Shown piece after piece: positions 21,137-38,977 of a stretch of 64,000 nt of DNA. Both the position numbers and the translations under genes were made by a program. This DNA is from Arenibacter aquaticus (GTDB taxonomy: Bacteria > Bacteroidota > Bacteroidia > Flavobacteriales > Flavobacteriaceae): positions 441,135 through 505,134 of the forward strand of contig NZ_RQPJ01000003.1 of the NCBI RefSeq assembly GCF_003957295.1, given 5' to 3'. Numbering within the stretch: the first letter of the stretch is position 1; each line of letters begins with the position of its first letter. The notes under the pieces were generated by a model. It made no database searches. It worked only from the letters and a program-made list of their open reading frames with translations, and was not told where the DNA came from.

Positions 21137-21937
21137 CTAGTCAATCTGCTGGTCAAAAAAACTTAAAGTTTGTTTCAAATGCCTCTGCCAATACGGCCAT
21201 TCGTGCCCCCCTTCAAATTCTTCGTAGGTATGGACTATTTTTAGTTCTTGCAGTTCTTTGTGCAATGTCCTATTGGCTTCCAAGAGGTCATCACTTGTAC
21301 CACAATCAAAGCGTAGGGCAGGCAATTGACCTTGTTGTTTTTTTATTAGGTCGATGACGTTTTTGTCCGAATCACCTATTTCGTAGGAAGCAAGGGGCTC
21401 TTCTACAAAGGCGGCCATCTGCTCAAACCTGGTTATGGCACTGTGGGCCGAAATAGCCTTAAATTTATGGGAAAATTGCCCTCCAAGCATCAAGGCACCA
21501 TATCCGCCCATAGACAATCCCCCAATACATAATGGGGAGTTTTTGGTTGCTCCGGCCATAGTTTCAATTATGGCCTCTGGAACATCGGACACAATCCACT
21601 TGGCAAAGTCTTTTTCCCTATGGGACAAGTAGCCAGAACCATCACCCCAAAGTCCGTCCGAAGGCATGGCAATAATGGCAGGACGTATATCGCCCTTATC
21701 CATTAATCTTTTTGCCGTAATATGCGCACCACCTTTCATGGACCATGACCAGGAGCTGCCGTATACGCCATGTAAAAGTATATAGATCGGGAGGTCCCTA
21801 TGATTTGCGGCGTTTTTTGGTACAAAAAGACAGATATCTCCCCTACCCTTCAAGTTTTTTGTTTTGATGGTTAAAAACCTCAGTTCATCATTTTCGTAGG
21901 CTTTATCGGAAAGTTCAATGGTTCTAAATTTGCTCAT
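21137..21937 (-). CDS. S-formylglutathione hydrolase-like serine esterase
   Basis: A 266-residue alpha/beta hydrolase of the esterase D/tributyrin-esterase family. The nucleophile elbow GLSMGG (Ser142), an acid in CGTSDD (Asp216 or 217) and the histidine in EGGHEWPYW (His245) form a full catalytic triad. YILLHGVYGSSWSW gives the oxyanion region. No export signal is seen, so it is cytoplasmic. It ends the P450 operon, 9 bases after the zinc alcohol dehydrogenase. The likely role is hydrolysis of an S-formylthiol to formate, completing disposal of formaldehyde released by demethylation. An alternative is carbohydrate ester hydrolysis; the operon context favours the former. Confidence 0.75.
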   Translation of the reverse strand: MSKFRTIELSDKAYENDELRFLTIKTKNLKGRGDICLFVPKNAANHRDLPIYILLHGVYGSSWSWSMKGGAHITAKRLMDKGDIRPAIIAMPSDGLWGDGSGYLSHREKDFAKWIVSDVPEAIIETMAGATKNSPLCIGGLSMGGYGALMLGGQFSHKFKAISAHSAITRFEQMAAFVEEPLASYEIGDSDKNVIDLIKKQQGQLPALRFDCGTSDDLLEANRTLHKELQELKIVHTYEEFEGGHEWPYWQRHLKQTLSFFDQQID

Positions 21938-21946
21938 ATCCTAAAA

Positions 21947-23065
21947 TTAATTGAAAACTATTACACCCTTTGCATTTTTTCCTTGGAGCATATCGTCCAA
22001 TGCCTGATGTAAATCTTCAAGTTGATATTCCCTACTAATCATCTGATCCAATTTTAAATCCCCCTTTTTGTATAATCGCATCAATTTTGGAAAATCAATT
22101 TCAGGGCGACATTTTCCGTATAAGGGATTGATGTATATTTTGTCCCATTCAAAGAGTCGCATATCAACCGTAATTTCTTCTTCAATGCCGCTTACTTGTA
22201 CCGCCGTTCCCGCATTCCTGATCATGGCCAAGGGTGCAGCTCCCAAGGAGGGGATTGCAGTACATTCAAAAGCGTAATCGGCTCCTCTCCCATCAAACAT
22301 TTTCTTTACTTTTTCCGCTACCTGGGCAAGTCCCGTATCGGTTCTATCGGCCAAGATAACATCGGTGGCACCAAATTGTTTGGCCAATTCCAGTTTATTT
22401 GGATTTATGTCTACCGCTAAAATACTTGCAGCACCGGAAATTGCGCAGGCGTTGATGACGTTCAATCCAACACCCCCACACCCCAAAACCACTGCAGAAC
22501 TACCGGCTTTTAGTCGGGCCGAATTCACTACAGAACCGTAGCCCGTCATCACCCCACAGCTGACAATACTGGCGGCTGAAAAGTTTAGATTCTCATCATC
22601 AACCTTTACCAAAGCCGAGGCTTTTACCAGGGCATATTCACTAAGTGTTCCAATATTAAAGGAACGCTCTATGGGTCTCCCCTTCCATTGGGTACCTTCC
22701 AAATGGGCATGCCCAGGGGTATAGCCATTTCCTCCCGCAACAACGGGAGAATTATTCTCGCAAATATGCTGATTTCCTTCCTGACATTGGAAACAGCTCA
22801 TACATGGAGTGGCCCAATTAAAAATAACTTGGTCTCCCTTCGCAAGGTTGTTAACGCCTGCCCCTACTTTTTCAACGATACCTGCCCCCTCGTGTCCCAT
22901 AAGCACAGGCTTGCCCCAAGAAAGGGAATCGTAATCGGTATGGCATAGGCCTGCTGCCTTCATTTTCACCACTACCTCATCTTCAAGGGGTTCCCCAAGG
23001 GTAACATGGTCTATAACAAATTTTCCATCGCCGGTGGCTATTGCACTCTTTGAAATTATGGACAT
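21947..23065 (-). CDS. Zinc-dependent alcohol dehydrogenase, class III-like (formaldehyde oxidation)
   Basis: A 372-residue medium-chain dehydrogenase. Catalytic zinc ligands are visible as Cys41 (GLCHTDYDSL) and His58-Glu59 (GHEGAG). The structural zinc cluster is Cys88, Cys91, Cys94 and Cys102. The Rossmann motif VVLGCGGVGLNV lies near residue 194. Length and layout match class III ADH / S-(hydroxymethyl)thiol dehydrogenases. Its position between ferredoxin reductase and an S-formylthiol-hydrolase-like esterase, in an operon led by a P450, points to oxidation of formaldehyde or its thiol adduct. Direct thiol-independent activity is also possible. Published work on algal demethylation links such ADHs to formaldehyde removal. 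Confidence 0.8.
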   Translation of the reverse strand: MSIISKSAIATGDGKFVIDHVTLGEPLEDEVVVKMKAAGLCHTDYDSLSWGKPVLMGHEGAGIVEKVGAGVNNLAKGDQVIFNWATPCMSCFQCQEGNQHICENNSPVVAGGNGYTPGHAHLEGTQWKGRPIERSFNIGTLSEYALVKASALVKVDDENLNFSAASIVSCGVMTGYGSVVNSARLKAGSSAVVLGCGGVGLNVINACAISGAASILAVDINPNKLELAKQFGATDVILADRTDTGLAQVAEKVKKMFDGRGADYAFECTAIPSLGAAPLAMIRNAGTAVQVSGIEEEITVDMRLFEWDKIYINPLYGKCRPEIDFPKLMRLYKKGDLKLDQMISREYQLEDLHQALDDMLQGKNAKGVIVFN

Positions 23066-23100
23066 ATTTTCCTTTTAATTTTTAAGGGACATCAACACCT

Positions 23101-24357
23101 TTATTTATTCGCCAATAGATGTATTGGCTTAAATTCCACTGCTGGGTCCGCCAGTTTTTCCTTATTAATTTTGTTGCCGATTTTAATAAATTTAGTGCCG
23201 TATACATAGGCCTTGGCATTGTTCACGGCATCAACGGCAAGGAGACGATCTCCCCTGAAATACCAAGCGGAAAAACATTTCTCCTTATCGGCTTCCCTCC
23301 GTAAAATTAGTTGGTCATATCCATTTGACAAACCTACCATCTGTAGTTTTACGTCATATTGATTAGACCAGAACCAGGGAATGCTATCGTATCTTGTTTC
23401 TTTTCCACACATGGCAGCGGCCGCCACTTTTGCCTGATCCACTGCGTTTTGAACTGACTCCAACCTTACAAAACGACGGTAATGTGGGTTATAATGAAAG
23501 GTACAATCCCCAATAGCAAAGATATCATCATCCAAGGTCTTGGCAGTTTCATCCACTTTTATACCGTTTTCAATGATGAGTCCGGCCGAGGCCGCCAATT
23601 CTGTATTGACAAGTATCCCTACACCAACAATGATAATATCGGCGATATAACTGGTTCCATCATCACATTTCACCACATTTTCTTTAGTATTGGTGTCAAT
23701 AGCGATTACATTCTTATTACTGAAAATAGCAACGCCATTTTCAGCGTGCAGATTTTGAAAGAAGGCGGACATTTCCGGTGCGGTAACCCTGGCCAAGACT
23801 CGATCTTCACGTTCCAATACCGTAACCGAAGCTCCTATTTTTTTTAAAGAGGCAGCAGTTTCAAGACCTATAAACCCTCCCCCAATAACAATTACCCTTT
23901 TATTATCACTTGCCGCCAAGCAGGTTCTAATGTTGGTCACATCGGCAGCCGTGCGCAGTGGGAAAATATTATTTGAAGACATTAAACCGGGAATTGGCGG
24001 TATAATAGGGCGGGCTCCAGTAGCTAGGACCAATTTGTCATAACTATGCTGCGTGCCATCATTGAGAACAACCTGCTTTTTCTCTCTTTTGATGGCGCTT
24101 ACCTTAATCCCCAGTTTTAGGGTTATCCCTTCCTTTTCATAACTCTCGGCAGATTTCAATAGGTTTTTATCAATGTCATCATCACTTGTTAGATATGTTT
24201 TGGATAAAGGGGGGCGATGATATGGAAGCAAGGGATCGGCATCATATAAGATGATATTGCCCTCCCAACCTTCGCGCCTTAATGCAAAGGCAAAATTCAC
24301 CCCTGAATGGCTTGCGCCGATAACGACGCATATTTTACTGTCCTTGATTTCGGTCAT
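23101..24357 (-). CDS. NAD(P)H-dependent ferredoxin reductase for the P450
   Basis: A 418-residue FAD-containing reductase of the putidaredoxin/rhodocoxin reductase type. The FAD-binding motif VVIGASHSGVNFA (residues 11-23), ATGARP (112-117), the NAD-binding VIVIGGGFIGLETA (155-168) and the second FAD motif AIGDC (281-285) occur in canonical order. A C-terminal reductase domain ends the protein. It transfers electrons from NAD(P)H to the 2Fe-2S ferredoxin encoded 15 bases upstream, which feeds the P450. The three-gene spacing shows a dedicated class I bacterial P450 redox chain. Confidence 0.92.
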   Translation of the reverse strand: MTEIKDSKICVVIGASHSGVNFAFALRREGWEGNIILYDADPLLPYHRPPLSKTYLTSDDDIDKNLLKSAESYEKEGITLKLGIKVSAIKREKKQVVLNDGTQHSYDKLVLATGARPIIPPIPGLMSSNNIFPLRTAADVTNIRTCLAASDNKRVIVIGGGFIGLETAASLKKIGASVTVLEREDRVLARVTAPEMSAFFQNLHAENGVAIFSNKNVIAIDTNTKENVVKCDDGTSYIADIIIVGVGILVNTELAASAGLIIENGIKVDETAKTLDDDIFAIGDCTFHYNPHYRRFVRLESVQNAVDQAKVAAAAMCGKETRYDSIPWFWSNQYDVKLQMVGLSNGYDQLILRREADKEKCFSAWYFRGDRLLAVDAVNNAKAYVYGTKFIKIGNKINKEKLADPAVEFKPIHLLANK

Positions 24358-24372
24358 TATTGGAGGTGTAAA

Positions 24373-24681
24373 TTATTTGGCAACCCTTAGGACCACTCCG
24401 TCCAAATGATCCCCTATTTCCAACTGACAGCACAAACGACTAAATTCGTCGGCATTATCGTCCAGTTCCAACATATCAGCTTCTATTTCACTTGCTGTAC
24501 CTGTTTTTTTCATATCCTCAGGGCTAACATGAACGTGGCAGGTAGCGCAAGAACAAACACCCCCACAATCGCCGTCTATTCCTTTTACTCCGTTCTCAAC
24601 GGCTAAGGCCATAACGGATCCTGAGCTTCCTTCTAAGGTAATACTTTCATTATCACTTGTAATAAATGTGATCTTTGCCAT
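24373..24681 (-). CDS. 2Fe-2S ferredoxin (adrenodoxin/putidaredoxin type)
   Basis: A 102-residue plant/vertebrate-type 2Fe-2S ferredoxin. The cluster ligands follow the adrenodoxin pattern C-x5-C-x2-C with Cys39, Cys45 and Cys48, plus Cys85 in SRLCCQLEIG. Two additional cysteines (43 and 84) sit beside the ligands. It lies between the P450 and its reductase with 15-base gaps on both sides. It is the obligate electron carrier to the P450. Confidence 0.93.
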   Translation of the reverse strand: MAKITFITSDNESITLEGSSGSVMALAVENGVKGIDGDCGGVCSCATCHVHVSPEDMKKTGTASEIEADMLELDDNADEFSRLCCQLEIGDHLDGVVLRVAK

Positions 24682-24696
24682 AATCGACTTTATATT

Positions 24697-25857
24697 TTAG
24701 GTTAATTTATTAAACTTTACATTTATTCGGTCGTATCCCACCTTTCGCTCAAATTCATCTAGAGACTCAATGTTTTCCTTGTAGTCCTGAATCTCTATGG
24801 AACCTACTTTGGTTGCCAACGTATTTAATAAGATTTTTAGTATTTGTCTGGCATGGGTTGCACCAAGACAGTTGTGATGACTAAAACCAAAACCTACATG
24901 TGGGTTTATTTTCCGGTCCAGGACAATCTCATTGGGGTTTTCAAATACGGCGGCATCCCTATTGGCAGAGGCCCAACATAAGGATACCCGAGTATCTGCT
25001 TTAATGGCATGCTCACATACTGCAGTGTCTTCCGTTACTACACGGCCCATTTGGGTCAAGGGAGAAAAGTATCGTATAAATTCCTCTACAGCCTTTCCTG
25101 CAATCTCGGGTTCCTTACGGAGGCGCTCCAGTGATTCTGGATACTCAGCCAGATAGGCAATGGAATTTGTAACGGCATTGATAACGGTATCGCGCCCACC
25201 GGCGAAAGTGAGTACCATAACCCCTTTCACCTCTTCCTTGCTAAGTTTTCTACCTTGAAAATCAGAAGATAGCAATACAGAATACATATCTTCCCCGGGT
25301 TTAGCAATGGCGCGTTCTATCTGCTGGTCTATATAATCATAAAGAATGTTGGCCTTATCCGCATCCAAGGCTTCCCCTTCACTTCTAAAAACGTGGGTGC
25401 CCCAGGATATCCAAGTTTCGGATTCCGAAAAAGGAGTATTGAGCAATAATGTTAAAGCCCTTGATTGTAGTGGCAGTGCAAATTGATTGACTACCTCTAC
25501 CCTATCATTATTCAAACATTCATTCACCAAAGATTCTATTTGTTCCTTTAATTTTTCTTGATATTCAGCCTGTAACGGACGTTTAAACCAAGGCTCCACT
25601 ATAGCCCTATATTCCCCGTGTACGGGAGGGTCCACCTCAAATGGAATTTGACGGGTGTCGCGAATATTCACCTCAGAAGGTACAACGATACGCCCCGGTT
25701 GGGCAGCAGATTGAAAAGTTTTGTAATTATGTGCTGTCTTTCTAACATCTTTGAGCCGCAATAGCATGGTTACCGGATCGTCCTGGTCATTCAATTTGCC
25801 AAAACCTTTTTCCACCCTCGCTTTTTCAAAGGGATCTGGTAGTTCACTTTTTTCCAT
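24697..25857 (-). CDS. Cytochrome P450, probable O-demethylase of methylated algal sugars (CYP236-like)
   Basis: A 386-residue soluble bacterial P450 with no membrane anchor. The I-helix oxygen-activation motif AGGRDT lies at residues 219-224 and the ExxR motif at 259-262 (EFIR). The heme loop FGFSHHNCLGATHAR has the axial Cys330. It starts a five-gene operon that encodes its complete redox chain and two formaldehyde-processing enzymes. Marine Bacteroidota are known to use P450s of the CYP236 type with the same neighbours to demethylate 6-O-methyl-D-galactose from porphyran, giving D-galactose and formaldehyde. Assignment to that family is inferred from context and general sequence; another methyl sugar is possible. 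Confidence 0.85.
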   Translation of the reverse strand: MEKSELPDPFEKARVEKGFGKLNDQDDPVTMLLRLKDVRKTAHNYKTFQSAAQPGRIVVPSEVNIRDTRQIPFEVDPPVHGEYRAIVEPWFKRPLQAEYQEKLKEQIESLVNECLNNDRVEVVNQFALPLQSRALTLLLNTPFSESETWISWGTHVFRSEGEALDADKANILYDYIDQQIERAIAKPGEDMYSVLLSSDFQGRKLSKEEVKGVMVLTFAGGRDTVINAVTNSIAYLAEYPESLERLRKEPEIAGKAVEEFIRYFSPLTQMGRVVTEDTAVCEHAIKADTRVSLCWASANRDAAVFENPNEIVLDRKINPHVGFGFSHHNCLGATHARQILKILLNTLATKVGSIEIQDYKENIESLDEFERKVGYDRINVKFNKLT

Positions 25858-25895
25858 AATACAATTCTTGATTCTACATTAATTAAAGGTAATTC

Positions 25896-25956
25896 CCAAT
25901 AGTGATACAAAATTGGCAATAATATAATCCCAATAAGTAACCATTTATGACCAATA
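25896..25956. promoter_or_regulatory. Candidate AraC-type operator repeats
   Basis: The 206-base divergent gap between the P450 and AraC genes carries CCAATA three times on the plus strand (25896, 25930, 25951) and its complement ATTGG at 25912. The copies at 25930 and 25951 extend to CCAATAAGTAACC and CCAATAACTTAAC and are exactly 21 bases apart. Direct repeats at two helical turns are the usual form of AraC-family binding sites. Binding by the adjacent regulator is inference. Confidence 0.5.
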
Positions 25957-26063
25957 ACTTAACTATTCTGTTTTTCATTTGTCAATTATCTGTAATTTAG
26001 GGTAAAATAAATCAATTAGTAAGGTTATACAGTCTATAGTTATTCCAAAATTTCAAGTAAATT

Positions 26064-26906
26064 ATGAAGCCGATCCTTGAACCCATTCCTTTTAATAAAC
26101 AACAAACCATTAAAGGATTTCACTACGTTGACAAGGATTTTGCAACCCCATGGCATTTTCACCCCCAACACGAACTTACCTACATAGAATCCAGTGTAGG
26201 AACAAAGTTTATAGGGGATCATGTTGGGCCATATCAGCCTGGGGAATTGGTACTTTTACGTTCCAATCTGCCCCACTGTTGGACTAACCACAAACAGCAG
26301 CTGTCAGATTCAAGATCGCTAGTGATACAATGGAACAAAGGTATCTTTGGAAAGGCGCCGGAACTTGCAGCTGTTTTTGAAATGTTAAAAATGGCTTCCA
26401 AGGGTATTATGTTTGATGCAGAGGTAATAGCCGTTGTTTTGCCACAACTTAAAAATATGATGCAATTAAAGGGACAAGGTCTATATCTGGAATTATTGTC
26501 CGTTCTTATCACGTTGTCCACAAGTTCGTATAAAACCCTATCGGTATCTAGCTTTGAGGAAGACTTGCCTACGGAATACGGTACCCGTATGACCAAAATT
26601 CATGATTTTGTGGGGGCGCATTACCACCGAAAAATATATTTGAAGGAATTGGCAGATTTGGTAAATATGTCCGAGCAATCCTTTTCACGTTTTTTTACAA
26701 AAATGATGGGGCGTTCTTTCTTTACCTTTTTAAACGAGTATCGTATTAATGTTGCGGCAAGAATGTTAGTGGATTCGGAGGCTTCCGTTTCCCAAATTGG
26801 TTTTGCCTGTGGCTATGAATCCCCTCCTTTCTTTTTTAAAAAATTTAAAAGTATATTCAAGGTTTCTCCCGCAAAGTATAGAAAAACATATTTGGGCCAA
26901 GTCTAA
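26064..26906 (+). CDS. AraC-family regulator divergent to the P450 operon
   Basis: A 280-residue AraC/XylS regulator. The N-terminal cupin sensor contains the metal-like motif WHFHPQHELTYIESSVGTKFIGD (residues 31-53) and PGELVLLRSNLPHCW. The C-terminal double helix-turn-helix (about residues 185-280) includes IYLKELADLVNMSEQSFSRFF and ends with the family signature ISQIGFACGYESPPFFFKKFK-type sequence and SPAKYRK. It is divergent to the demethylase operon across a gap with 21-base repeats. It most likely senses a sugar or methyl-sugar and activates the P450 genes. Confidence 0.9.
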   Translation: MKPILEPIPFNKQQTIKGFHYVDKDFATPWHFHPQHELTYIESSVGTKFIGDHVGPYQPGELVLLRSNLPHCWTNHKQQLSDSRSLVIQWNKGIFGKAPELAAVFEMLKMASKGIMFDAEVIAVVLPQLKNMMQLKGQGLYLELLSVLITLSTSSYKTLSVSSFEEDLPTEYGTRMTKIHDFVGAHYHRKIYLKELADLVNMSEQSFSRFFTKMMGRSFFTFLNEYRINVAARMLVDSEASVSQIGFACGYESPPFFFKKFKSIFKVSPAKYRKTYLGQV

Positions 26907-28633: not shown

Positions 28634-30196
28634 TTATTCGGATATAATCTTAAAGGCAAAAGCATGGTCACCTACTTTTTCATGGGGCAATTGAATACGG
28701 AGCCCCTTGTCCCCTACTTTAAAGTCCAATGGCTTTTTATAGCCCAGTAACTCAATTTTCTTAATATTCTTTGAATAGTATTTATTGTCTTTTTTTAAGG
28801 TGGTTATGAGCATCTCGCCATCAGCGGGCCAATCCAAGGCAATGGCGTACAAGCTACCCTCTTTGGTCGTAAAGCGAATATCTTTAGAGGTATTATCCGG
28901 ATTACTACGTTCGCTCAAATGGCCTTCAACCACCTTGGTCCCGCCTTCACCGTATACCGCAAATGTTCTTGTGCCATATATAGCCTCCCCATTTACCCTT
29001 AGCCATTGTCCCATTTCCAAAAGTCGTTCCTTTACAGGTTTGGGAATTTCACCGTTGGCTTTGGGGGTAATATTTAAAAGTACCGCCCCATTTTTACTAA
29101 CCACATCTACCAAAAAATCTACCAGCCTATTGACGGATTTATAATCTGGATTCTTGATATGGCTCCAAGAATTCCAATCGATGGAATCATCTGTTAACCA
29201 GGGAAAGTCTTTTTTCTCGCTCATCCGGGCCCGTTCCAAATCCAAAACGGCACTGCCTTTGGCAAAATCATAGAACTTATAGGTAGAGACTACCTCTTGT
29301 TTTTTCTTAGCGGCCTGATTGTAATAATATTCTAGGAATTCTTTACGATATGTTTCTCCAATGACATCCATTTTATTGTCGAACCACACCAAATCGGGAT
29401 CGTATTTGTCAATAATTTCCTTTAGCCTGTCCAACCATTCCTTATTAAAGTTTTCGTCGGCAAGGGGATAGTATTTTTTAATTCCTGCATCAATATCATG
29501 TGTTGAAGGAGGGTATTGAAAGTCGCCCTTTTTCATTTTAGGTCCGTATAGGCCTGCATATTTGGGGTCACTGGCGTCCGTAGTTTCATCCCAAGTAGGA
29601 TACCAACCCAAGAGCCATTGCCTATGAAAGGTGGCAATAAATTTCATATCCCTTTTTCTGATCTCATGTGCCAGTTCCCCCATAATATCCCTTTTGGGAC
29701 CCATTTCTTTAGCGTCCCACGAAGTAAGTTCACTATCCCACATAGCAAAGCCATCTGCGTGTTCCGAAACAGGCCCGGCAAATTTTGCCCCAGCTTTTTC
29801 AAAGAGATCGGCCCATTGGGCAGCGTCAAATTTTTCTGCCTTGAACATGGGTATAAAGTCTTTATAGCCAAAATCCTTTAAAGGGCCGTATGTCGCTACA
29901 TGATGTTTATAGTATTCACTGGCCTCGCCGTTCTTTGCTTCTGGATTGTTTTTATGTACATACATCCAATGGGAATACCATTCATTTTTGAATTCAGGAA
30001 CGGAGTAAGGCCCCCAGTGACAATAAATACCAAACTTGGCGTCCAAGAACCACTCAGGTGTCTTGTGCTGTTTTAGGGACTCCCAATCGGCCTGATAGCT
30101 AATATCTTGCCCTCTATTTATCTGTATTCCCAACAAGGTTAGTATACCCAAGAAATACCATTTGGTTGCAGATGGTTTTAGTTTGTTGAATTGCAT
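28634..30196 (-). CDS. GH29 alpha-L-fucosidase family enzyme
   Basis: A 520-residue retaining exo-glycosidase of family GH29, which removes terminal alpha-L-fucose, or alpha-L-galactose in some marine members. A signal peptide is visible (YFLGILTLLGIQINRGQ, residues 14-30). The N-terminal (beta/alpha) barrel includes FGIYCHWGPYSVP (55-67) and AGPVSEHADGFAMWDS. The nucleophile Asp273 sits in DPDLVWFDNK. A C-terminal beta-sandwich follows. It is the third gene of a minus-strand operon after the sulfatase and GH28-like genes (gaps 6 and 26 bases). All three are exported and probably act in sequence on the same oligosaccharide. The choice between fucose and galactose cannot be made by eye. Confidence 0.9.
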   Translation of the reverse strand: MQFNKLKPSATKWYFLGILTLLGIQINRGQDISYQADWESLKQHKTPEWFLDAKFGIYCHWGPYSVPEFKNEWYSHWMYVHKNNPEAKNGEASEYYKHHVATYGPLKDFGYKDFIPMFKAEKFDAAQWADLFEKAGAKFAGPVSEHADGFAMWDSELTSWDAKEMGPKRDIMGELAHEIRKRDMKFIATFHRQWLLGWYPTWDETTDASDPKYAGLYGPKMKKGDFQYPPSTHDIDAGIKKYYPLADENFNKEWLDRLKEIIDKYDPDLVWFDNKMDVIGETYRKEFLEYYYNQAAKKKQEVVSTYKFYDFAKGSAVLDLERARMSEKKDFPWLTDDSIDWNSWSHIKNPDYKSVNRLVDFLVDVVSKNGAVLLNITPKANGEIPKPVKERLLEMGQWLRVNGEAIYGTRTFAVYGEGGTKVVEGHLSERSNPDNTSKDIRFTTKEGSLYAIALDWPADGEMLITTLKKDNKYYSKNIKKIELLGYKKPLDFKVGDKGLRIQLPHEKVGDHAFAFKIISE

Positions 30197-30222
30197 ATAT
30201 TCTTTTTTGAATAGTTCAATTG

Positions 30223-31617
30223 TTAATTTATATTGATTTGTGATACAGGAACCAATTTGCGGTTCGCACGGACACCATTAATTTCTGCGTGTAGTACATC
30301 GTCCAATACTATTGGGTCCCGTAGATCCTTATTTAAAACAATTAGGTTGAAATTGTCTATGACCAGTCCATCAATATGTCGCGCGTAAATCCCCGAGGCA
30401 GGCAGGGTACCTACCAAACTGAACTCTGGCCACCATCCATTAAGCACTTCTTGTGTATATTCCTTTATTTCCAATTTATTGGCATCTTCCGCCGTTCCTC
30501 CTCCGGAAACCCCAAATTGAACATCCTTTATGGAGATGTCCTCTATACGATGTCCTGGAAATCCGGTCAGGAAGAAGGCCGAATTTTTATCTAACATGGA
30601 ATTATCCACTACCACGTTGCTAAAGCTAAAATTGTGCATTCTTTTTAAAGGTTCCAGCTCGCCTTCAGGAGTTTCCATAGAGGCCCTTTGTTGGGTGAAG
30701 GACATAAATATAGGCCGTGGCACGTTCTCCATAACCAAATTACTAAAGACCATATTCTTCATTTCACCTCCTTCATTCTGTTGAATTTTGAGTCCCGAAT
30801 CCTGAATATTCTTGAAAGTACAGTTGGTTACGGTGACCGATTCTATATTGCCCCTAGAGAGTAGGCCTATGCGCATACCGCCCCATTTGGTGCTAAAATG
30901 GCAATTGCTAACCGTGATATTTTTACAGGGCCTGTCTGGTCGTGAAGCCTGCAGACAGATGCTATCATCACTGTTATCAAAATTGCTATTGACAACGCGA
31001 ACGTTAGTACATCCGTCAAAATCCAAGCCATCACCATTATTGTTTACCCGGCTTATAATATTGATGCCGCTTACACTAATATTATTGCAATATAACCAAG
31101 CTGAGGTCCATGCCGCCGGATTGATCAAGGTGATATAGCTCAGGTGAATATCGGTTACGTTCACAAACCTGACCATCATAGGACGCCCTCCATTGGCCTT
31201 GGTAAAGTTCTTTTGGTGGCCGTTCCCATCTATAGTCCCATAGCCTTCTATGGCAATGGAGCGGGCATCTTTCGCGAATATCAGGCAACGATCCATATGA
31301 GGTTCGTTTTTATACATATTTTTATGGGTGTCTGCGCTATAGTCTTGGTAATTTGGACTTCCTAAGAGTACGGCACCGTTTTCTACGTGCAGGGTTACAT
31401 AATCTTTTAAATAGATGGTTCCGATCAAAACGGTTGTTCCCGAGGGTATAAGTACCCTGCCACCGCCATTTTGAGTACAGGCGTCGATAGCGCTTTGCAC
31501 TGCACGGGTGTCCAAAGTAGTCCCATCCCCTTTGGCTCCATAATCCAATACATTGAAGTCCTTGGCCAGCAATGACAAAGGAAGATAGATCAGAATAACA
31601 AGAATTAATCTTTTCAT
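30223..31617 (-). CDS. GH28-like right-handed beta-helix glycosidase, atypical active site
   Basis: A 464-residue exported beta-helix protein. After a signal peptide (residues 1-18) comes the pectate-lyase-superfamily start FNVLDYGAKGDGTTLDTRAV. The GH28 core follows with DGLDFDGCTNV (Asp196 and Asp199) and the paired acids in DNSDDSICLQAS (Asp217, Asp218). The usual G-H-G motif is replaced by KWGGMRIG (244-251), so the conserved histidine is absent, and the R-I-K motif reads LKI. GH28 hydrolyses galacturonic acid linkages, but these substitutions and the sulfatase/GH29 context suggest a different substrate, perhaps a neutral galactose or fucose linkage (inference). A truncated relative survives in the chimeric ORF at 27787. 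Confidence 0.8.
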   Translation of the reverse strand: MKRLILVILIYLPLSLLAKDFNVLDYGAKGDGTTLDTRAVQSAIDACTQNGGGRVLIPSGTTVLIGTIYLKDYVTLHVENGAVLLGSPNYQDYSADTHKNMYKNEPHMDRCLIFAKDARSIAIEGYGTIDGNGHQKNFTKANGGRPMMVRFVNVTDIHLSYITLINPAAWTSAWLYCNNISVSGINIISRVNNNGDGLDFDGCTNVRVVNSNFDNSDDSICLQASRPDRPCKNITVSNCHFSTKWGGMRIGLLSRGNIESVTVTNCTFKNIQDSGLKIQQNEGGEMKNMVFSNLVMENVPRPIFMSFTQQRASMETPEGELEPLKRMHNFSFSNVVVDNSMLDKNSAFFLTGFPGHRIEDISIKDVQFGVSGGGTAEDANKLEIKEYTQEVLNGWWPEFSLVGTLPASGIYARHIDGLVIDNFNLIVLNKDLRDPIVLDDVLHAEINGVRANRKLVPVSQININ

Positions 31618-31623
31618 GTTTTA

Positions 31624-33312
31624 TTATTTGGGTTCAATGATCAAACCCCTTTCTGCTTCACTGTCTGCGGTGTACCGCAGTACCATTGGAGCATCTTCCC
31701 CCCTAGCCAATTTTATTTCCCGTTCCCATACCAACCTCATCTTTTCCAGTTCTTCGGTGTAGGCATCGTCCATCGCCAAATTGGTAGTCTCGTCGGGGTC
31801 GTTCTTTAAGTTAAAGAGTTCTTCATAAACCGCTTGTTCCCCGTTTAAAGGGCCTTCCACAAAATCCCGGTATAAGGCTATGTCCGGGTCGTGGACCTGA
31901 TATAACATACTGTTTATATTTATACCCATTGCTTTGGCGGTTGCTATTTTTTTATTCGCGGATAGATTTTCATTCTTGTAATATCTTATGTATTTCCATT
32001 CCATGTCCTGTACCGCTTCGCATCTTGGGTTGCCAAATTGGGTAGACCATAAATTTTCGGTAAAGAGAAATGGCCGCACTGCAGTTTGGGAGCCAGAAAG
32101 TATGCCGCCTAAATCTTTACCCTGATAGCTATCAGGAATGGCAACATTGGCCATTGTCAACATGGTTGGGGCAATATCGATACTTTGCACCAAGGCATCG
32201 GAAGTTTTTCCACGAGTAGATTTTTTTGATTTGGGATCAAAAATAATCATAGGTACATGGGTCGTAACCTCATAGCAAAATGCCTTACCTCCAAGACCGA
32301 ACTGCCCCATAAAAAGTCCGTGGTCCGAAGTGAATACTAGGACCGTATTCTTATTCAGTTTCTGATCTTTCAAGGTTTTTCTAAGTTGTCCTACCAAACG
32401 ATCTATTCCGGTCATGGCCTCCATTTGCCTTATGTAGCGCTCTCGATAGCCTTCGGGGGTGTCTACATAATTATAGCCAAGCTGTCTATCGTTGGCGCGA
32501 TGTATTTCTTTTGGTAGTTTGGGATCTTTAATGTCTTTTCTGGCCACATAGTTTTTGGGCAGGGGAATATCCTTATCCCGATATAATGTCTTATAGATGT
32601 CATCATCGGAATCCCGCATCTCCATACTTCCCGTACCCGCTCCATGGGGAAGATTAAAACATACCGATAACATAAAGGGTTTATCAGCTGGGCGTTGATC
32701 AATGAATTTTAATGCTCCTTTCAATTTTTGCTCGTTAGACAGAAAATCATGTATGCCCTCCCCCACTACTTCAACTTGGGTATCCATTTTTGCATCTTTG
32801 AAAATCGTATGTCGTTCCTTAGGGTAGAAACCCAAATGCCCATGTCCGGCATACCAATAGTCAAAGCTTTTTTCCATCATACCACTATCATAACCCCCAT
32901 TACCTACAGGCACATGGTTTTTACCTATCCATCCGGTGTAATAACCATTGTCACGCATAACCACTGGATACGTATTTTTCCAACCCTCCTCAGACAAACT
33001 GGTTCCCGAATTAAAATTCACACCGTGTTTGCGCTCAAATTGGCTGGTGAGTATACTTGCCCGGCTGGGAGTACAAATGGCACTGGTAATATGGGCATTG
33101 GTAAAAAGAATACCGTCTTCGGACAATTTATCCAAATTTGGTGTTTTTACAATTTCATTTCCTGTGCAGCCCATCATCCCATATTGCTGGTCATCCGTAA
33201 GGATGAATATAAAATTAGGCCGTTCCTGTGCTAGCGATTTGGCAAAGGGGATCGTTAATAGTAAGACTATAACGAGCAATTTGAAAGCTCTGGTTGACTT
33301 ATTTTTTTTCAT
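31624..33312 (-). CDS. S1-family formylglycine sulfatase
   Basis: A 562-residue exported arylsulfatase-type enzyme that removes sulfate esters from a polysaccharide. Signal peptide residues 1-29; the metal-binding motif FILTDDQQYG (residues 36-45); and the formylglycine site AICTPSRASILTS with Cys80 are visible. The second metal motif FTSDHGLFMGQFG occurs at about residue 330. It leads the minus-strand operon followed by the GH28-like and GH29 genes with a 6-base gap. Sulfatase activity requires a maturase, which is not in this window. The S1 subfamily and the sulfate position are not assignable by eye. Confidence 0.92.
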   Translation of the reverse strand: MKKNKSTRAFKLLVIVLLLTIPFAKSLAQERPNFIFILTDDQQYGMMGCTGNEIVKTPNLDKLSEDGILFTNAHITSAICTPSRASILTSQFERKHGVNFNSGTSLSEEGWKNTYPVVMRDNGYYTGWIGKNHVPVGNGGYDSGMMEKSFDYWYAGHGHLGFYPKERHTIFKDAKMDTQVEVVGEGIHDFLSNEQKLKGALKFIDQRPADKPFMLSVCFNLPHGAGTGSMEMRDSDDDIYKTLYRDKDIPLPKNYVARKDIKDPKLPKEIHRANDRQLGYNYVDTPEGYRERYIRQMEAMTGIDRLVGQLRKTLKDQKLNKNTVLVFTSDHGLFMGQFGLGGKAFCYEVTTHVPMIIFDPKSKKSTRGKTSDALVQSIDIAPTMLTMANVAIPDSYQGKDLGGILSGSQTAVRPFLFTENLWSTQFGNPRCEAVQDMEWKYIRYYKNENLSANKKIATAKAMGININSMLYQVHDPDIALYRDFVEGPLNGEQAVYEELFNLKNDPDETTNLAMDDAYTEELEKMRLVWEREIKLARGEDAPMVLRYTADSEAERGLIIEPK

Positions 33313-33774: not shown

Positions 33775-35322
33775 ATGACCCGGAAATTCCCACTCCTATT
33801 GGTTTTAGGACTAATAGTAATAGGTGCTTGTAAGACAGATAAGAAAGTAGAACAGTCTATTGCCAAGACCAACGAAACCTCTCCCAAATTTGAACCCAAT
33901 TGGGAGTCTATCAAAAAAAATTACAAGGACCCAGAATGGTTCAGCAATGATAAGTTCGGTATTTTCATCCACTGGGGCGCCTATAGTGTTCCTGCCTATG
34001 GTTCCGAATGGTATCCTAGACAAATGTATATGGATACTGCAACATTTTCGGCTCAGCTAAAATTGGGTAAAAAAGGACCCAATCCTACTTACCTACATCA
34101 CAAAAAAACGTGGGGAGATCAAAAAGAATTTGGATATAAGGACTTTATTCCAATGTTTAAAGCGGAAAAATTTGATGCAGCGGAATGGATAGATTTATTT
34201 AAAAAATCGGGAGCCAGATACGTAGTTCCCGTTGCCGATCACCATGACGGTTTTGCCATGTATAAATCCAATACCACTCGTTGGAATGCCTATGATATGG
34301 GACCCAAAAGAGACGTTCTGGGTGAGCTTTTTAAAGAAGGGCGTAAACAGGGCCTTAAAATGGGCGCCTCCTCCCATTTTGCATTTAACTGGTCCTTTTA
34401 TAATAAAAAGGACAAGTTTGATACCACTGATCCGGACTATGCCGATTTGTATTCCAGTAAGGGAAAAAATTTGAAAGAGCCGGTATCGGATAAGTTTAAA
34501 CAGCGGTGGTGGGATCGGACAATAGATCTAATTGACTCATATCAACCAGATATATTGTATTTTGACTTTTATGTAGATATTGAAGATTTTGCAGAATTAC
34601 GCCCAAAATTGGCAGCTTATTACTATAATAAAGGTGTAGAATGGGGTAAAGAAGTACTAATCAATGATAAGAACTTTGGCCACGAAGCTTTTCCTGAAGG
34701 CACTGTAATCTATGACTTGGAACGTGGAAAACTTCCTGGAATTAGAAAACTGCCCTGGCAGACCGATACTTCTATTGGCAAGAACTCTTGGTCCCATGTT
34801 ACTAATTGGGATTCTAAAACCGCCAATCAACTAATTGATGATTTAGTTGATATTGTTTCCAAGAACGGTAATTTATTATTAAATGTTGGCCCAAAGGCAG
34901 ACGGAACTATTCCAGATGACCAAAAAGAGATTCTCTTGCAGATAGGTGATTGGCTTGCGGTAAACGGGGATGCCATATATGATACCAGATATTGGAAAAC
35001 ATTTGGTGAAGGTCCTACAGAAGTGAAGAAAGGACACCATTCTGAAGGACAAAATAAAGAGTTTACTGGGCAGGATATCCGTTTTACCAAAAAAGGCGAC
35101 AAGCTGTTCGCCATTATGTTGGCATGGCCGGCAAATGGGAAAATTAATATCGAATCCTTGGGAAGTAAAAGTGAATACGCTAAAGATATTACAATTAAAG
35201 AAGTTCGTTTATTGGGCAGTGATGCCAAATTGAAGATTAATCAATCCGAAGATGGTCTTCTAGTTGATAATTTAGGTGAAAAATCAGGAGAATTTGCCCA
35301 TGTGTTGGAAATTAGCCTATAG
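33775..35322 (+). CDS. GH29 alpha-L-fucosidase family lipoprotein
   Basis: A 515-residue GH29 enzyme. The lipobox IGAC (Cys19) shows it is lipid-anchored, unlike the other two intact GH29 proteins here. FGIFIHWGAYSVPAYGSEWYP (residues 61-81), VADHHDGFAMYKS (153-165) and the nucleophile Asp264 in DILYFDFYVD match the family. Length is normal. A closely similar truncated copy lies at 27168, so this gene family expanded locally. It is expected to act at the surface or on the periplasmic face, removing terminal alpha-L-fucose or alpha-L-galactose. It is closed by a strong hairpin 35 bases downstream. Confidence 0.92.
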   Translation: MTRKFPLLLVLGLIVIGACKTDKKVEQSIAKTNETSPKFEPNWESIKKNYKDPEWFSNDKFGIFIHWGAYSVPAYGSEWYPRQMYMDTATFSAQLKLGKKGPNPTYLHHKKTWGDQKEFGYKDFIPMFKAEKFDAAEWIDLFKKSGARYVVPVADHHDGFAMYKSNTTRWNAYDMGPKRDVLGELFKEGRKQGLKMGASSHFAFNWSFYNKKDKFDTTDPDYADLYSSKGKNLKEPVSDKFKQRWWDRTIDLIDSYQPDILYFDFYVDIEDFAELRPKLAAYYYNKGVEWGKEVLINDKNFGHEAFPEGTVIYDLERGKLPGIRKLPWQTDTSIGKNSWSHVTNWDSKTANQLIDDLVDIVSKNGNLLLNVGPKADGTIPDDQKEILLQIGDWLAVNGDAIYDTRYWKTFGEGPTEVKKGHHSEGQNKEFTGQDIRFTKKGDKLFAIMLAWPANGKINIESLGSKSEYAKDITIKEVRLLGSDAKLKINQSEDGLLVDNLGEKSGEFAHVLEISL

Positions 35323-35356
35323 CATTGTTAAGTTGATTAGTTGAATTAGTATTTGT

Positions 35357-35384
35357 TAGAGCGCACTTGTCCGAGTGCGCTCTA
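35357..35384 (+). terminator. Hairpin terminator after GH29
   Basis: TAGAGCGCACT (35357-35367) pairs perfectly with AGTGCGCTCTA (35374-35384) around loop TGTCCG. The T tract is short (ATTTAGATTAG), so it is a strong stem with a modest tail, and partial read-through to the dehydrogenase gene is possible. Confidence 0.78.
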
Positions 35385-35573
35385 TTTAGATTAGTATACC
35401 TCTTCCTATAGGGTTAAAACTTAATAAGACCAATTATTACACCAAGTTGATGTATTAGTCCCCATAGAAATGCTATAAAAAAATAGTTTTAAAGTTTAAA
35501 AATATGACACTGTTTCGATAGATAAATTAAGATAATCTAAAATAAAAGAACAGTTAACCTAAAAAAAGATAGA

Positions 35574-36590
35574 ATGAATTATATAGTTTGTGAGAAACCA
35601 GGAGAGTTTATTTTAAAAGAAAAGGATGCTCCAGCCAAAATTAAAGGAGAAGCCTTATTACGCGTCAAGAAGGTGGGTATTTGCGGAACGGACTTACACG
35701 CTTATGGCGGTAACCAAGCTTTTTTTACCTATCCCAGAATTTTAGGGCATGAACTTGCTACGGAGATCTTGGAGATAGAGGAGAACGATAAAGGCCTAAA
35801 AAAGGGTAACAATGTAGTGGTGATGCCTTATATAAGTTGTGGTACATGTGTCGCATGTAGAAACGGTAAAACCAATTGCTGTACCAACATTGCCGTACTG
35901 GGAATCCACACTGACGGTGGAATGCAGGAATCCATATCCGTTCCAATAGATTTGTTGATCCCGGCCCAAAACCTAAGCGATAATCAAATGGCGGTGGTGG
36001 AACCTTTGGCCATTGGGGCACATGCCATCCGCAGGGCCAATCTTAAAAAAGGAGAAACCATCGTGGTGGTAGGATGTGGGCCAATAGGCATTGGAATATT
36101 AAAATTGGCACAGATTGCCGGAGCAAAAGTGATTGCCATTGATATGAACCAAGGTAGATTGGATTATGCCAAAGAAAAGATCGGGGTAGATCATATTGTA
36201 ATGGGCGGTAAAGATGCTGTAGAACAAATAAGGGAAATTACCAATGGCGATATGTGTGCCGTGGTTTTTGATGCTACGGGACACAAAGGTGCCCTGGAAT
36301 CTGGCCCTGACTATATGTCCCATGGAGGACGCTATGTCCTTGTTGGACTTTCCAAGGGAGAGCTCACCTTTGTGCATCCGGCCATACACGCCAAGGAGTC
36401 TACCATCCTTTGTAGTAGGAATGCTACTTTGGAAGATTTTGAAAACGTCATTTCAATTCTAGAAAAAGGACAATTTCCTATTGATTCCTTTGTTACCCAC
36501 AATGTACCCTATACGGAGATGATAGCCAATTTTGACCATTGGGTAGATCCAAAAAATGGAGTTATAAAGGCTATGGTAGATTTTTATTAA
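35574..36590 (+). CDS. Zinc dehydrogenase, L-galactonate 5-dehydrogenase (LgoD/YjjN)-like
   Basis: A 338-residue medium-chain zinc dehydrogenase. It is strikingly similar in layout and wording to E. coli LgoD, which oxidises L-galactonate to D-tagaturonate. Shared marks include GICGTDLHAYGGNQAFF (residues 35-51), YPRILGHE (53-60) and the terminal-third SRNATLEDFENV. The catalytic zinc ligands are Cys37 and His59-Glu60, and the structural cysteines Cys89, Cys92, Cys95 and Cys103. VVGCGPIGIG binds NAD. The enzyme is cytoplasmic. It starts a run of L-sugar catabolic genes (FucX-like dehydrogenase, FucP-like transporter, mutarotase). An alternative is a dehydrogenase in the 2-keto-3-deoxy-L-fuconate route. 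The L-galactonate assignment comes from remembered sequence similarity. Confidence 0.7.
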   Translation: MNYIVCEKPGEFILKEKDAPAKIKGEALLRVKKVGICGTDLHAYGGNQAFFTYPRILGHELATEILEIEENDKGLKKGNNVVVMPYISCGTCVACRNGKTNCCTNIAVLGIHTDGGMQESISVPIDLLIPAQNLSDNQMAVVEPLAIGAHAIRRANLKKGETIVVVGCGPIGIGILKLAQIAGAKVIAIDMNQGRLDYAKEKIGVDHIVMGGKDAVEQIREITNGDMCAVVFDATGHKGALESGPDYMSHGGRYVLVGLSKGELTFVHPAIHAKESTILCSRNATLEDFENVISILEKGQFPIDSFVTHNVPYTEMIANFDHWVDPKNGVIKAMVDFY

Positions 36591-36832
36591 TGCCCCGAAG
36601 CGTTTGGAACGCTGAGTGAGGTTTTCATTTGCCAGTAATGGTATATGCCCCTTGCGAACATTACACGCATGGGAATGCTAAGATTATAAAATTGGAAAGT
36701 AGAAAGGACCATTACGGTGAGAGTAACGGTTTAGGGATATATCAGAACTTTTACTGTCACCCATTATTTTTGGGATAGACACTAAAAAGGTCAAGGATTA
36801 CTTTTGGATAATTAACCAACAATATAAAATAG

Positions 36833-37630
36833 ATGGATTTAGGATTAAATGATAAAGTGGTTGTGGTAACTGGTGCCGCTGGAACTAAAGGGAGTATAGG
36901 TGAAACTATTGTACAAGCCCTTGCGAACGAAGGGGCGATACCTGTAATAGTGTGTAGAAACGATAGAGGTTATGGCTATGAAAAGGAACTTCAGGAAAGG
37001 GGGTTGGATGCCATCTTCGTTAAGACAGATCTATCCGATCCGGCCCAAATAGAAAAAGCGGTAAAAATAATTGGCGAAAAGTACGGGCGTATAGATGCCC
37101 TTATCAATAATGTTGGGGTCAACGATGGTGCCGGACTTGATGCTTCCATTGAGGATTTTATGTATTCCTTAAAATTGAATTTAGTAAGTTTCTTTGCCAT
37201 GACAAAATACTGTTTGCCCTATCTTATCAAAGCCAAGGGCAATATATTGAATATAGGATCCAAAGTTGCATTAACAGGCCAGGGAGCTACTTCCGGATAT
37301 GCAGCTTCCAAAGGGGGAGTGTTGGGTCTTACCCGTGAATGGGCGGTAGACCTAATTAAACATGATATCCGTTCCAATGCCATAATCATCGCAGAAAGCT
37401 GGACCCCTGCCTATGACAATTGGATCAAAACCCTGGACGACGGAGCCGAAAAATTACAATCCATCGTCAAGAAAATACCCCTCGAAAATCGAATGACAAC
37501 TCCCCAGGAAATTGCTGATAGCTGTTTGTTCACTATCTCGGATAAATCTTCACATACCACGGGACAGTTCATTTTTGTGGACGGGGGCTACGTACATTTG
37601 GACAGATCTCTATTGACCGATCAACTATAA
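36833..37630 (+). CDS. SDR L-fucose dehydrogenase (FucX-like), possibly acting on L-galactose
   Basis: A 265-residue short-chain dehydrogenase. The NAD motif VVTGAAGTKGSIG (residues 11-23), NNVG (92-95), Ser143 and the YxxxK pair Tyr156/Lys160 are in place. The C-terminal SHTTGQFIFVDGGYVHLDRSL closely resembles Campylobacter FucX and other L-fucose dehydrogenases, which oxidise L-fucose (and the related D-arabinose or L-galactose configuration) to the lactone. It is 12 bases upstream of the FucP-like transporter, so it belongs to an uptake-and-oxidation operon for the sugar released by the neighbouring GH29 enzymes. It differs from isomerase-based FucI pathways. Confidence 0.8.
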   Translation: MDLGLNDKVVVVTGAAGTKGSIGETIVQALANEGAIPVIVCRNDRGYGYEKELQERGLDAIFVKTDLSDPAQIEKAVKIIGEKYGRIDALINNVGVNDGAGLDASIEDFMYSLKLNLVSFFAMTKYCLPYLIKAKGNILNIGSKVALTGQGATSGYAASKGGVLGLTREWAVDLIKHDIRSNAIIIAESWTPAYDNWIKTLDDGAEKLQSIVKKIPLENRMTTPQEIADSCLFTISDKSSHTTGQFIFVDGGYVHLDRSLLTDQL

Positions 37631-37642
37631 AAACTACCCACT

Positions 37643-38977
37643 ATGAACACTACCAATAAAATACCAGTGGTGCGTAGGGAATTATTATTTCCCTTCATTA
37701 TCATCACTTCATTGTTTGCTCTTTGGGGCATTGCCAACGACCTTACCAACCCTATGGTATCTGCATTTAAGAAAGTGATGCCGGAATTGACCAATGTACA
37801 AGCTTCGTTGGTACAGTTTGCCTTCTATTTTGGCTATTTTTTTATGGCCTTGCCTGCCGCACTCTTTATTCGTAAATACAGCTATAAATCCGGTATTATC
37901 CTAGGATTGATTTTATATGCCATAGGAGCATTTTTGTTTTATCCTGCAGCGGCCTATGAAGAATACTCTTATTTTTTAATATCCCTTTGGGTATTGACTT
38001 GTGGCCTTGCTTTTTTGGAAACCACCTCCAACCCATTAGTACTTGCCCTAGGCGATGAGGAAACAGCTACCAGAAGATTAAACCTGGCCCAAGCATTTAA
38101 TCCTATGGGATCATTGACCGGAATGATCATAGCGCAAGTTTTTGTAATAGGAGCGTTGCGTTCAGATGATTACACCGCTGAAGCCTTTAAGGCCTTAGGG
38201 TCTGAAGAATTGGCCGCCATTAGGGAGAATGACCTGGGAATTATCAGTATCCCGTATATTGGTTTGGGAATTGTGGTACTCACTATCATGGCCATAATCG
38301 TATTTACCAAGATCCCGAAAACGGCAGAAGAAGACAAGATGTCGGTTTCAGAATCCTTTAAAAAACTTTTTGCCAATAAAAACTATATAAGAGGTGTTGT
38401 TGCCCAAGCTTTCTATGTGGGCGCACAGATTATGTGCTGGACCTATATTTTTCAGTACGTTGATCTGATGAACCAAGGACGGGCCGAGACCGAACAATTA
38501 ACGGCTACTTGGTTCAACGTAATGGCCATGATATCGTTTCTTACAGGACGGTGGATCGGCACAGCTATGATGAAGAATATAAATCCTTCCAAACTCTTGA
38601 TGTGGTTTGGTCTTGGAGGAGTATTGATGTCCCTAGGGGCGATAGTATTACCCGGCATGGCAGGTCTACTTGCTCTAGTAGGTATTTCGGTCTTTATGTC
38701 CATTATGTTCCCTACCATTTACGGAATTGCCTTAAAGGACATGGGAGATGAGGCCAAAATAGGGTCCGCGGGCCTTGTAATGGCCATTGTAGGAGGTGCT
38801 TTAATGCCAGTACTCCAAGGCAGTATTTTGGACTGGGGAGGGGATGGATTTGCAGATGTAGCGGTACTAGGATTTATTCCGGAAGTAAAATTTTCATTCA
38901 TTCTACCCTTGATTTGCCTGGCCGTTGTGGCTTGGTACGGATACAGTAGTTTTAAAACAAATAATACAATCAAATGA
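37643..38977 (+). CDS. fucP: FucP-type sugar:H+ symporter (MFS)
   Basis: A 444-residue major-facilitator transporter of the fucose-galactose-glucose:H+ symporter family with twelve hydrophobic segments. The diagnostic N-terminal FALWGIANDLTNPMVSAFKKVM (about residues 21-42) and FAFYFGYFFMALPAALF are present, as is FLETTSNPLVLALG near residue 128. The YTIFQYVD-type and GIALKDMG segments match FucP in the C-half. It imports L-fucose, and possibly L-galactose, through the inner membrane. It sits between the dehydrogenase and the mutarotase, overlapping the latter by four bases. Confidence 0.9.
   Translation: MNTTNKIPVVRRELLFPFIIITSLFALWGIANDLTNPMVSAFKKVMPELTNVQASLVQFAFYFGYFFMALPAALFIRKYSYKSGIILGLILYAIGAFLFYPAAAYEEYSYFLISLWVLTCGLAFLETTSNPLVLALGDEETATRRLNLAQAFNPMGSLTGMIIAQVFVIGALRSDDYTAEAFKALGSEELAAIRENDLGIISIPYIGLGIVVLTIMAIIVFTKIPKTAEEDKMSVSESFKKLFANKNYIRGVVAQAFYVGAQIMCWTYIFQYVDLMNQGRAETEQLTATWFNVMAMISFLTGRWIGTAMMKNINPSKLLMWFGLGGVLMSLGAIVLPGMAGLLALVGISVFMSIMFPTIYGIALKDMGDEAKIGSAGLVMAIVGGALMPVLQGSILDWGGDGFADVAVLGFIPEVKFSFILPLICLAVVAWYGYSSFKTNNTIK

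Follow-up and report, generated by a model that had tools for sequence, protein, structure and literature searches.

A short operon in Arenibacter aquaticus raises the question of what happens to the carbon that a cytochrome P450 removes from a methylated algal sugar, and of what a zinc-dependent alcohol dehydrogenase (ADH) and an esterase contribute behind it. The operon lies in a window of 64,000 nucleotides (GCF_003957295.1, NZ_RQPJ01000003.1:441,135-505,134, forward strand; the window is the whole stretch analysed) and, by itself, it is a further member of an already published cluster. Those who characterised the conserved ADH left its role open: it is needed on 6-O-methyl-galactose and was inactive on the intermediates that they tested. 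What is new with respect to the published cluster is a putative reusable ADH-esterase module whose oxygenase changes, so that the question of the ADH is now directly testable. Strict pairing and oxygenase exchange point to a hemiacetal as the substrate of the ADH, and to demethylase candidates for further methylated sugars of algal and soil glycans.

Compared with the sequences of the Protein Data Bank (PDB), the P450 of the operon matches 6g5o at 731.8 bits across residues 1-386, the next protein scoring 151.9 bits. We take 6g5o to be the Zobellia galactanivorans 6-O-methyl-galactose CYP, and CYP236 to be the name of this P450 type. The heme-cysteine motif FGFSHHNCLG is present, and genes for a ferredoxin and a reductase adjoin. 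A preliminary description of this DNA had proposed that the operon removes a methyl ether from an algal sugar; for a red-algal sugar, this is supported by the end-to-end match and by neighbouring genes that fit red-algal galactan. Judging from its sequence, the operon very probably acts as a demethylation system for 6-O-methyl-D-galactose, or a closely related methylated sugar, freed from red-algal galactan, through hydroxylation of the O-methyl group by the P450. Such hydroxylation has been reported for orthologues (Brott 2023, PMC10033563); here and below, statements on the orthologues rest on the accessible part of that paper.

ADH and esterase form a constant pair

We searched 397 Flavobacteriaceae genomes; in this and the later searches, E-value thresholds were set by hand (P450, 1e-60; ADH, 1e-80; esterase, 1e-40 or 1e-50; and, for two kinds of PhyH-type dioxygenase described below, PhyH, 1e-20 or 1e-40, and PhyH2, 1e-55 or 1e-40). 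ADH was found in 41 genomes, the esterase in 41 and the P450 in 29. The ADH and esterase sets are the identical 41 genomes, and all 29 P450 genomes lie inside them. Together with a second pair in the A. aquaticus genome, they provide 42 loci (genomes and loci are cited by G and L numbers), in every one of which ADH and esterase share a strand, with the ADH upstream; the two genes are directly adjacent in 37 loci, and in five a gene of about 836 residues lies between them. P450 genes come before the pair in some loci and after it in others, and in G334 the P450 is on another contig. ADH and esterase are one strict unit, distributed more widely than the P450.

The ADH matches PDB sequences 8h2b (723.4 bits) and 8h2a (636.6 bits), and the zinc-binding cysteines are present in its sequence. 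Entries 8H2A and 8H2B were deposited as ZoADH and FoADH by Brott 2023 (PMC10033563). The esterase carries the serine motif GLSMGG in all 42 loci, and S142, D211 and H245 are among the invariant columns of 25 aligned sequences, which fits an intact catalytic triad. Its AlphaFold2 model (pLDDT 91.1) superimposes on the S-formylglutathione hydrolase 3ls2_A with a Z score of 29.7 and a root-mean-square deviation of 2.3 over 247 aligned residues, and the first Foldseek matches are Bacteroides feruloyl esterases; the modelled fold is of the esterase D type, equally near to both enzyme groups and hence unspecific. In a crude hydropathy screen for a signal-peptide-like N-terminus, none of the 42 esterases reached the limit of 1.8, with six exported-type controls at 2.53-3.57; four of 42 ADH open reading frames (ORFs) reached it, and at least one ADH ORF (L095) was called with an extended start. 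A secreted CE1 feruloyl or acetyl esterase was considered and rejected, as an exported-type N-terminus is missing from all 42 esterases.

Other oxygenases accompany the pair

Twelve of the 41 pair genomes have no P450, and all twelve carry one type of PhyH iron/2-oxoglutarate dioxygenase, found in 8 of the 29 P450 genomes and in 3 of 39 pairless controls picked by handle order minus six handles (80-93% complete); for 12/12 against 3/39 the Fisher value is 2.9e-9, kinship not being allowed for. In seven of these P450-less genomes PhyH is an immediate neighbour of the pair, and in another the distance is 5.6 kb. Three P450 loci likewise have PhyH adjoining the pair, and in Zobellia barbeyronii (L153) P450, ferredoxin, reductase, ADH, esterase and PhyH stand in one row. 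All 11 PhyH proteins compared have the iron-ligand motif WHQD; they are candidate sugar O-demethylases. Our literature searches, with subscription journals mostly outside their coverage, turned up no report of a PhyH acting as sugar demethylase. In L095 and L101 the neighbours of the PhyH-ADH-esterase genes include a GH38 alpha-mannosidase and a sugar transporter, a context that suggests an O-methyl-mannose substrate.

The window genome has a PhyH gene of the pair-linked group (G000:C4:302482-303366, L141), located downstream of SusC/SusD and an N-acetylglucosamine-2-epimerase-like gene; the stretch fetched around it contains no ADH-esterase pair. Another member of the window's own genus, G212 (L090), has an ADH-esterase pair that is close in sequence (88% and 77% identity) and no P450 match, with PhyH on another contig.

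A scan of a genome collection with the esterase alignment gave at least 336 relatives, the best 80 of which were kept; some overlap the 397 genomes. Among these best 80 loci, ADH is present in 76, being missing from L179 (contig edge), L222, L228 and L229, and its distance to the esterase is at most 200 bases in 64 of the 76, 2.5-3.5 kb in 11 and 249 bases in L165. The fetched stretch includes an oxygenase in 49 of the best 80 (P450 in 30, two of them also with PhyH; PhyH alone in 13; PhyH2 in 6). Thirty of the other 31 loci could be searched genome-wide, which gave P450 in 11, PhyH in 7 and PhyH2 in 13, together 28 of the 30. Overall, 77 of the 79 checkable loci among the best 80 have P450, PhyH or PhyH2, either close by or in another part of the genome, the PhyH2 matches in G420 and G421 being weak (48% identical over part of the protein, and 43%).

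PhyH2 goes with the esterase in soil Bacteroidota. These two genes only were compared across 171 genomes of the Mucilaginibacter gossypiicola family, which we take to be the Sphingobacteriaceae. The esterase occurs in 16 of them and PhyH2 in 29, with PhyH2 in 14 of the 16 esterase genomes vs 15 of the 155 others; in 12 of the 14 both genes are on one contig, less than 7 kb apart. ADH lies beside the esterase in eight of nine fetched loci of this family. Clusters L202, L247-L250 and L255 combine PhyH2, ADH and esterase with a varying set of GH13, GH65, transporter and SusC/SusD genes, and possibly serve a methylated alpha-glucoside or a trehalose-like sugar.

The second pair of the window genome (G000:C9:612774-614672) has yet another neighbour. 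Its gene row (612774-618342; L102:9191-14843) includes, upstream of the pair, an N-acetylglucosamine-2-epimerase-like gene, an FAD/2Fe-2S reductase and a protein of 478 residues in which the E-x-x-H motif occurs twice (ETRH and EVLH); at the motif level we read this protein as a ferritin-like di-iron oxygenase. Searches of this protein gave no PDB sequence match, no NCBIfam match and no Pfam family over cut-off. Among the 41 pair genomes it occurs in G000 only.

To follow the history of the partners, we used a tree obtained by a quick search from concatenated ADH and esterase sequences of 83 chosen loci (some genomes twice), with 22 of 78 inner branches poorly supported. For 62 loci the oxygenase within the fetched stretch served as the label, P450 with PhyH being a state of its own, and the 21 loci without oxygenase were not counted. 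This tree requires 12 or more changes of the partner label vs 20-29 with shuffled labels, and for P450 against the rest at least 9 changes were needed (shuffled, 13 to 25). Partner type is inherited yet repeatedly exchanged.

A proposed route through a formate ester

The constancy of the pair and the change of its partners are shown by this comparison, and it is likely that ADH and esterase make up a constant one-carbon module that serves several unrelated oxygenases and finishes the carbon they remove. A constant dehydrogenase and esterase behind interchangeable hydroxylases would follow the logic of hemiacetal, ester and acid. In the operon of the window, the P450, supplied by ferredoxin and reductase, would hydroxylate the O-methyl group, giving an O-hydroxymethyl hemiacetal (R-O-CH2OH). 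With NAD+ as acceptor, the ADH would oxidise this hemiacetal to R-O-CHO, a formate ester, which the esterase would hydrolyse to R-OH and formate. Little free formaldehyde would arise, and the NADH used by the reductase would be recovered. We give this order of steps, ADH and then esterase, a chance that comes close to even.

Two precedents for chemistry of this kind are on record. Yeast ADHs produce methyl formate by oxidising the hemiacetal of methanol and formaldehyde, according to the accessible part of PMC12572079, and the available portions of PMC2847961 and PMC4517660 describe that users of methyl tert-butyl ether (MTBE) convert tert-butoxymethanol to tert-butyl formate and this to tert-butanol and formate, with a dehydrogenase and a carboxylesterase listed. 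The orthologous ADHs accept hydrocinnamaldehyde and benzaldehyde-type substrates and do not accept phenylacetaldehyde (PMC10033563). The carbinol of an O6 hemiacetal is three atoms from the ring, as in hydrocinnamyl alcohol, a likeness that may be a weak hint in favour of the O6 hemiacetal as ADH substrate. The word 'hemiacetal' is absent from the main text of Brott 2023 (PMC10033563).

A wider reading, which we hold to be somewhat less likely than not, is that of a general, exchangeable module for methyl-sugar demethylation in Bacteroidota, in which the pair would make formate via a formate ester and at least three unrelated oxygenase classes would each be fitted to a different methylated glycan. 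The candidate classes are the P450, the two PhyH kinds and the di-iron-like monooxygenase; if this is true, PhyH and di-iron proteins are new classes of sugar O-demethylase. The polysaccharide utilization loci (PULs) around the pairs do differ, with GH29/sulfatase, GH38 or GH13/GH65 genes.

A number of observations weigh against these proposals. Formaldehyde hemiacetals are short-lived in water. A review describes the hydroxylation as being followed by a decomposition step that gives formaldehyde (PMC8360166). The ADH orthologues have a narrow active site and a preference for reducing aromatic aldehydes; they were inactive on the sugars tested, and the authors consider sugar substrates unlikely (PMC10033563). 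The esterase lacks an adjoining ADH in L222, L228, L229 and L251, and the genomes of L177 and L228 show none of P450, PhyH and PhyH2 genome-wide. G462 and G571 carry the esterase with no PhyH2 match in the genome; in G462 (L259), where the genome-wide oxygenase search covered PhyH2 only, the pair has SusC/SusD and genes without a label as neighbours, the fetched stretch gives no match to P450, PhyH or the di-iron-like protein, and a further oxygenase type is possible. L-galactose-type operons that lie apart from the pair also contain PhyH (L144-L146, L148, L149 and L152), so that part of the link between PhyH and the pair may stem from a shared diet. Kinship among the genomes makes the Fisher values overstate independence. 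For the 478-residue protein, the Pfam family DUF455 is matched under cut-off (E 0.0058 and 0.045) and the structure model, made for two sequences, is uninformative (pLDDT 40.2). Among 63 genomes (11 searched before), a set mostly picked for having the pair or PhyH2 and with no unbiased control set, this protein occurs only in G571 (61% identical), where the reductase lies beside it and the ADH-esterase pair is on another contig.

Alternative roles for the pair

ADH and esterase are also the classical pair for thiol-dependent formaldehyde oxidation, and the preliminary description had regarded them as detoxifying formaldehyde. Freed formaldehyde would here add to some thiol, the ADH would make the S-formyl thioester and the esterase would hydrolyse it. 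The esterase model aligns with 3ls2_A as well as with the other top rows, the exchange of oxygenases is compatible with any formaldehyde source, and the authors of the orthologue study leave an unknown thiol open (PMC10033563). However, the orthologous ADHs were inactive on formaldehyde alone, with glutathione, mycothiol or bacillithiol and as dismutase; cysteine, coenzyme A, ergothioneine and aromatic thiols likewise gave no formaldehyde activity, and the active site is described as unable to accommodate large thiols (PMC10033563). The ADH of the window also falls far below the models of thiol-dependent formaldehyde dehydrogenases (TIGR02818, 207.4 bits for a cut-off of 543.95; TIGR03451, 229.4 for 512.9). 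As for the esterase, its description as S-formylthiol-hydrolase-like stands as a generic likeness and goes no further, its score against TIGR02821, the model for S-formylglutathione hydrolase, being 33.1 bits (cut-off 281.7). In the loci seen, moreover, the pair accompanies sugar-PUL oxygenases and does not stand as a general formaldehyde system. We reject formaldehyde detoxification with the known thiols on the published orthologue assays and the sequence cut-offs, and a thiol-dependent route in general seems unlikely to us. The comparative evidence favours a pair that completes the oxidation of the removed carbon, more probably before free formaldehyde arises.

Alternatively, formaldehyde could be released spontaneously and handled by the ribulose monophosphate (RuMP) pathway, the link of ADH and esterase to these loci being unrelated. 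RuMP genes rise on porphyran in Zobellia, as cited in PMC10033563, and the window genome has a match over cut-off to the RuMP enzyme HPS (TIGR03128) at C16:118899-119507. HPS over cut-off is found, however, in only 6 of the 29 P450 genomes, all 29 of which have the pair, and in 7 of the 41 pair genomes (ten more have weaker matches only, at E 1e-15 or better), so that most P450 genomes probably need another carbon route. Deletion of the ADH, in an organism that has RuMP, impaired growth on 6-O-methyl-galactose as sole carbon source and left growth on galactose unaffected (PMC10033563). RuMP is unlikely as the general formaldehyde sink of this group, HPS being the only sink searched, and we regard this alternative as a whole as improbable.

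The aldehyde preference of the ADH orthologues (PMC10033563) and the Bacteroides feruloyl esterases that lead the Foldseek matches would suit a third role, in which the pair processes aromatic groups, an aromatic acid being released by the esterase and aromatic aldehydes being converted by the ADH; the need for the ADH on 6-O-methyl-galactose, the lack of an exported-type N-terminus in the 42 esterases and the fact that nothing aromatic was seen to link the P450, PhyH, GH38 and GH13 contexts make it very improbable. Least probable of all is that the sugar is the substrate of both enzymes, which would then be a sugar dehydrogenase and a lactonase in the L-galactose/L-fucose route: many pair loci do contain L-fucose dehydrogenase, fuconolactonase-like, PRK10083-type, tagaturonate reductase and altronate dehydratase-type genes, but these steps already have their own enzymes there, no such route is present in the fetched stretch of many P450 loci and of the GH38 and GH13 loci, and the published inactivity on sugars and unaffected growth on galactose speak against it (PMC10033563).

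The operon and its surroundings in the window

The genes of the operon and of its surroundings are listed in Table 1. ORFs and Pfam agree with the minus-strand operon of the preliminary description, with gaps of 15 (P450-ferredoxin), 15 (ferredoxin-reductase), 35 (reductase-ADH) and 9 bases (ADH-esterase), and the divergent AraC regulator that it reported is there as well; the Pfam matches of all six genes are over the family cut-offs. P450, reductase, ADH and esterase are all on one strand in 28 of the 42 ADH-esterase loci, a recurrence that argues against a chance arrangement; a ferredoxin was called in 27 of these 28 and none in L108. A regulator of the same cluster as the AraC protein of the window is present in 34 of the 42.

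Table 1. Genes of the demethylation operon and neighbouring carbohydrate genes (window positions).
Feature	Position	Strand	Evidence
Alpha/beta-hydrolase esterase, probably cytoplasmic, constant partner of the ADH	21137..21937	-	266 aa; Pfam Esterase 63.2 bits
Zinc-dependent ADH, ZoADH/FoADH orthologue	21947..23065	-	372 aa; Pfam ADH_N and ADH_zinc_N
Ferredoxin reductase, FAD, NAD(P)H type	23101..24357	-	418 aa; Pfam Pyr_redox_2 227.2 bits, Reductase_C 97 bits
2Fe-2S ferredoxin, redox partner	24373..24681	-	102 aa; Pfam Fer2 30.1 bits
Cytochrome P450, 6-O-methyl-galactose demethylase type	24697..25857	-	386 aa; Pfam p450 68.6 bits
Divergent AraC-family regulator	26064..26906	+	280 aa; Pfam HTH_18 75.8 bits, Cupin_2
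GH29, GH28-type and sulfatase genes	28634..33312	-	Pfam
GH29, PRK10083-type zinc dehydrogenase, L-fucose/L-galactose-type dehydrogenase and FucP permease	33775..38977	+	Pfam, NCBIfam

Three GH29 genes, one GH28-type gene and sulfatases surround the operon. In the plus-strand group, NCBIfam models FucosDh (362.8 bits, cut-off 300) and fucP (505.9, cut-off 280.4) are matched; the PRK10083 match (201.5 bits) is below its cut-off of 376, and we take this gene to be LgoD. Related loci include fuconolactonase-like, tagaturonate reductase, altronate dehydratase-type, KDG kinase-like and KDPG aldolase genes, a predicted gene set that fits the L-galactose route. The accessible part of PMC12316285 reports a GH29 enzyme active as L-galactosidase in a porphyran locus. 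The GH29, sulfatase and L-galactose-route genes thus support red-algal galactan as the food source.

Between the operon and the minus-strand group, window positions 27213-28518 hold remnants: the plus-strand ORF 27413-27874 contains only a GH29 fragment, and the minus-strand ORF 27787-28518, which overlaps its end, has a sulfatase match over residues 33-97 only and no Pfam match in the remainder. This is probably a decayed or deletion-fused stretch. Further on, a hybrid two-component regulator with a beta-propeller sensor (53403-57635) lies beside sulfatases and probably controls a second PUL of the window.

Comparison with known systems

The closest known system is the cluster of Zobellia galactanivorans and Formosa agariphila, which has the same five genes, an orthologous P450 and ADH and a red-algal setting; clustered CYP, redox partners, ADH and esterase are recorded for Zobellia, Formosa, Polaribacter, Maribacter and Arenibacter (PMC10033563). 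Unlike it, A. aquaticus adds a second pair beside the di-iron-like protein and a PhyH gene elsewhere. The glutathione-dependent detoxification system, with class III ADH and S-formylglutathione hydrolase, uses the same two enzyme classes and the same esterase fold, but the ADH and esterase of the window score far under both models and orthologous ADHs are inactive with glutathione (PMC10033563). With yeast ADHs acting as methyl formate synthase, the proposed route would share the oxidation of a formaldehyde hemiacetal to a formate ester, although the yeast activity, in the accessible part of its description, is on a methanol adduct and involves neither a sugar nor an oxygenase operon (PMC12572079). 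The MTBE pathway, with its monooxygenase, hydroxymethyl tert-butyl ether dehydrogenase and tert-butyl formate carboxylesterase, would share with the proposed route the whole sequence from methyl ether through hemiacetal and formate ester to alcohol and formate; its substrate is another one, and the likeness is at the level of logic and gene content.

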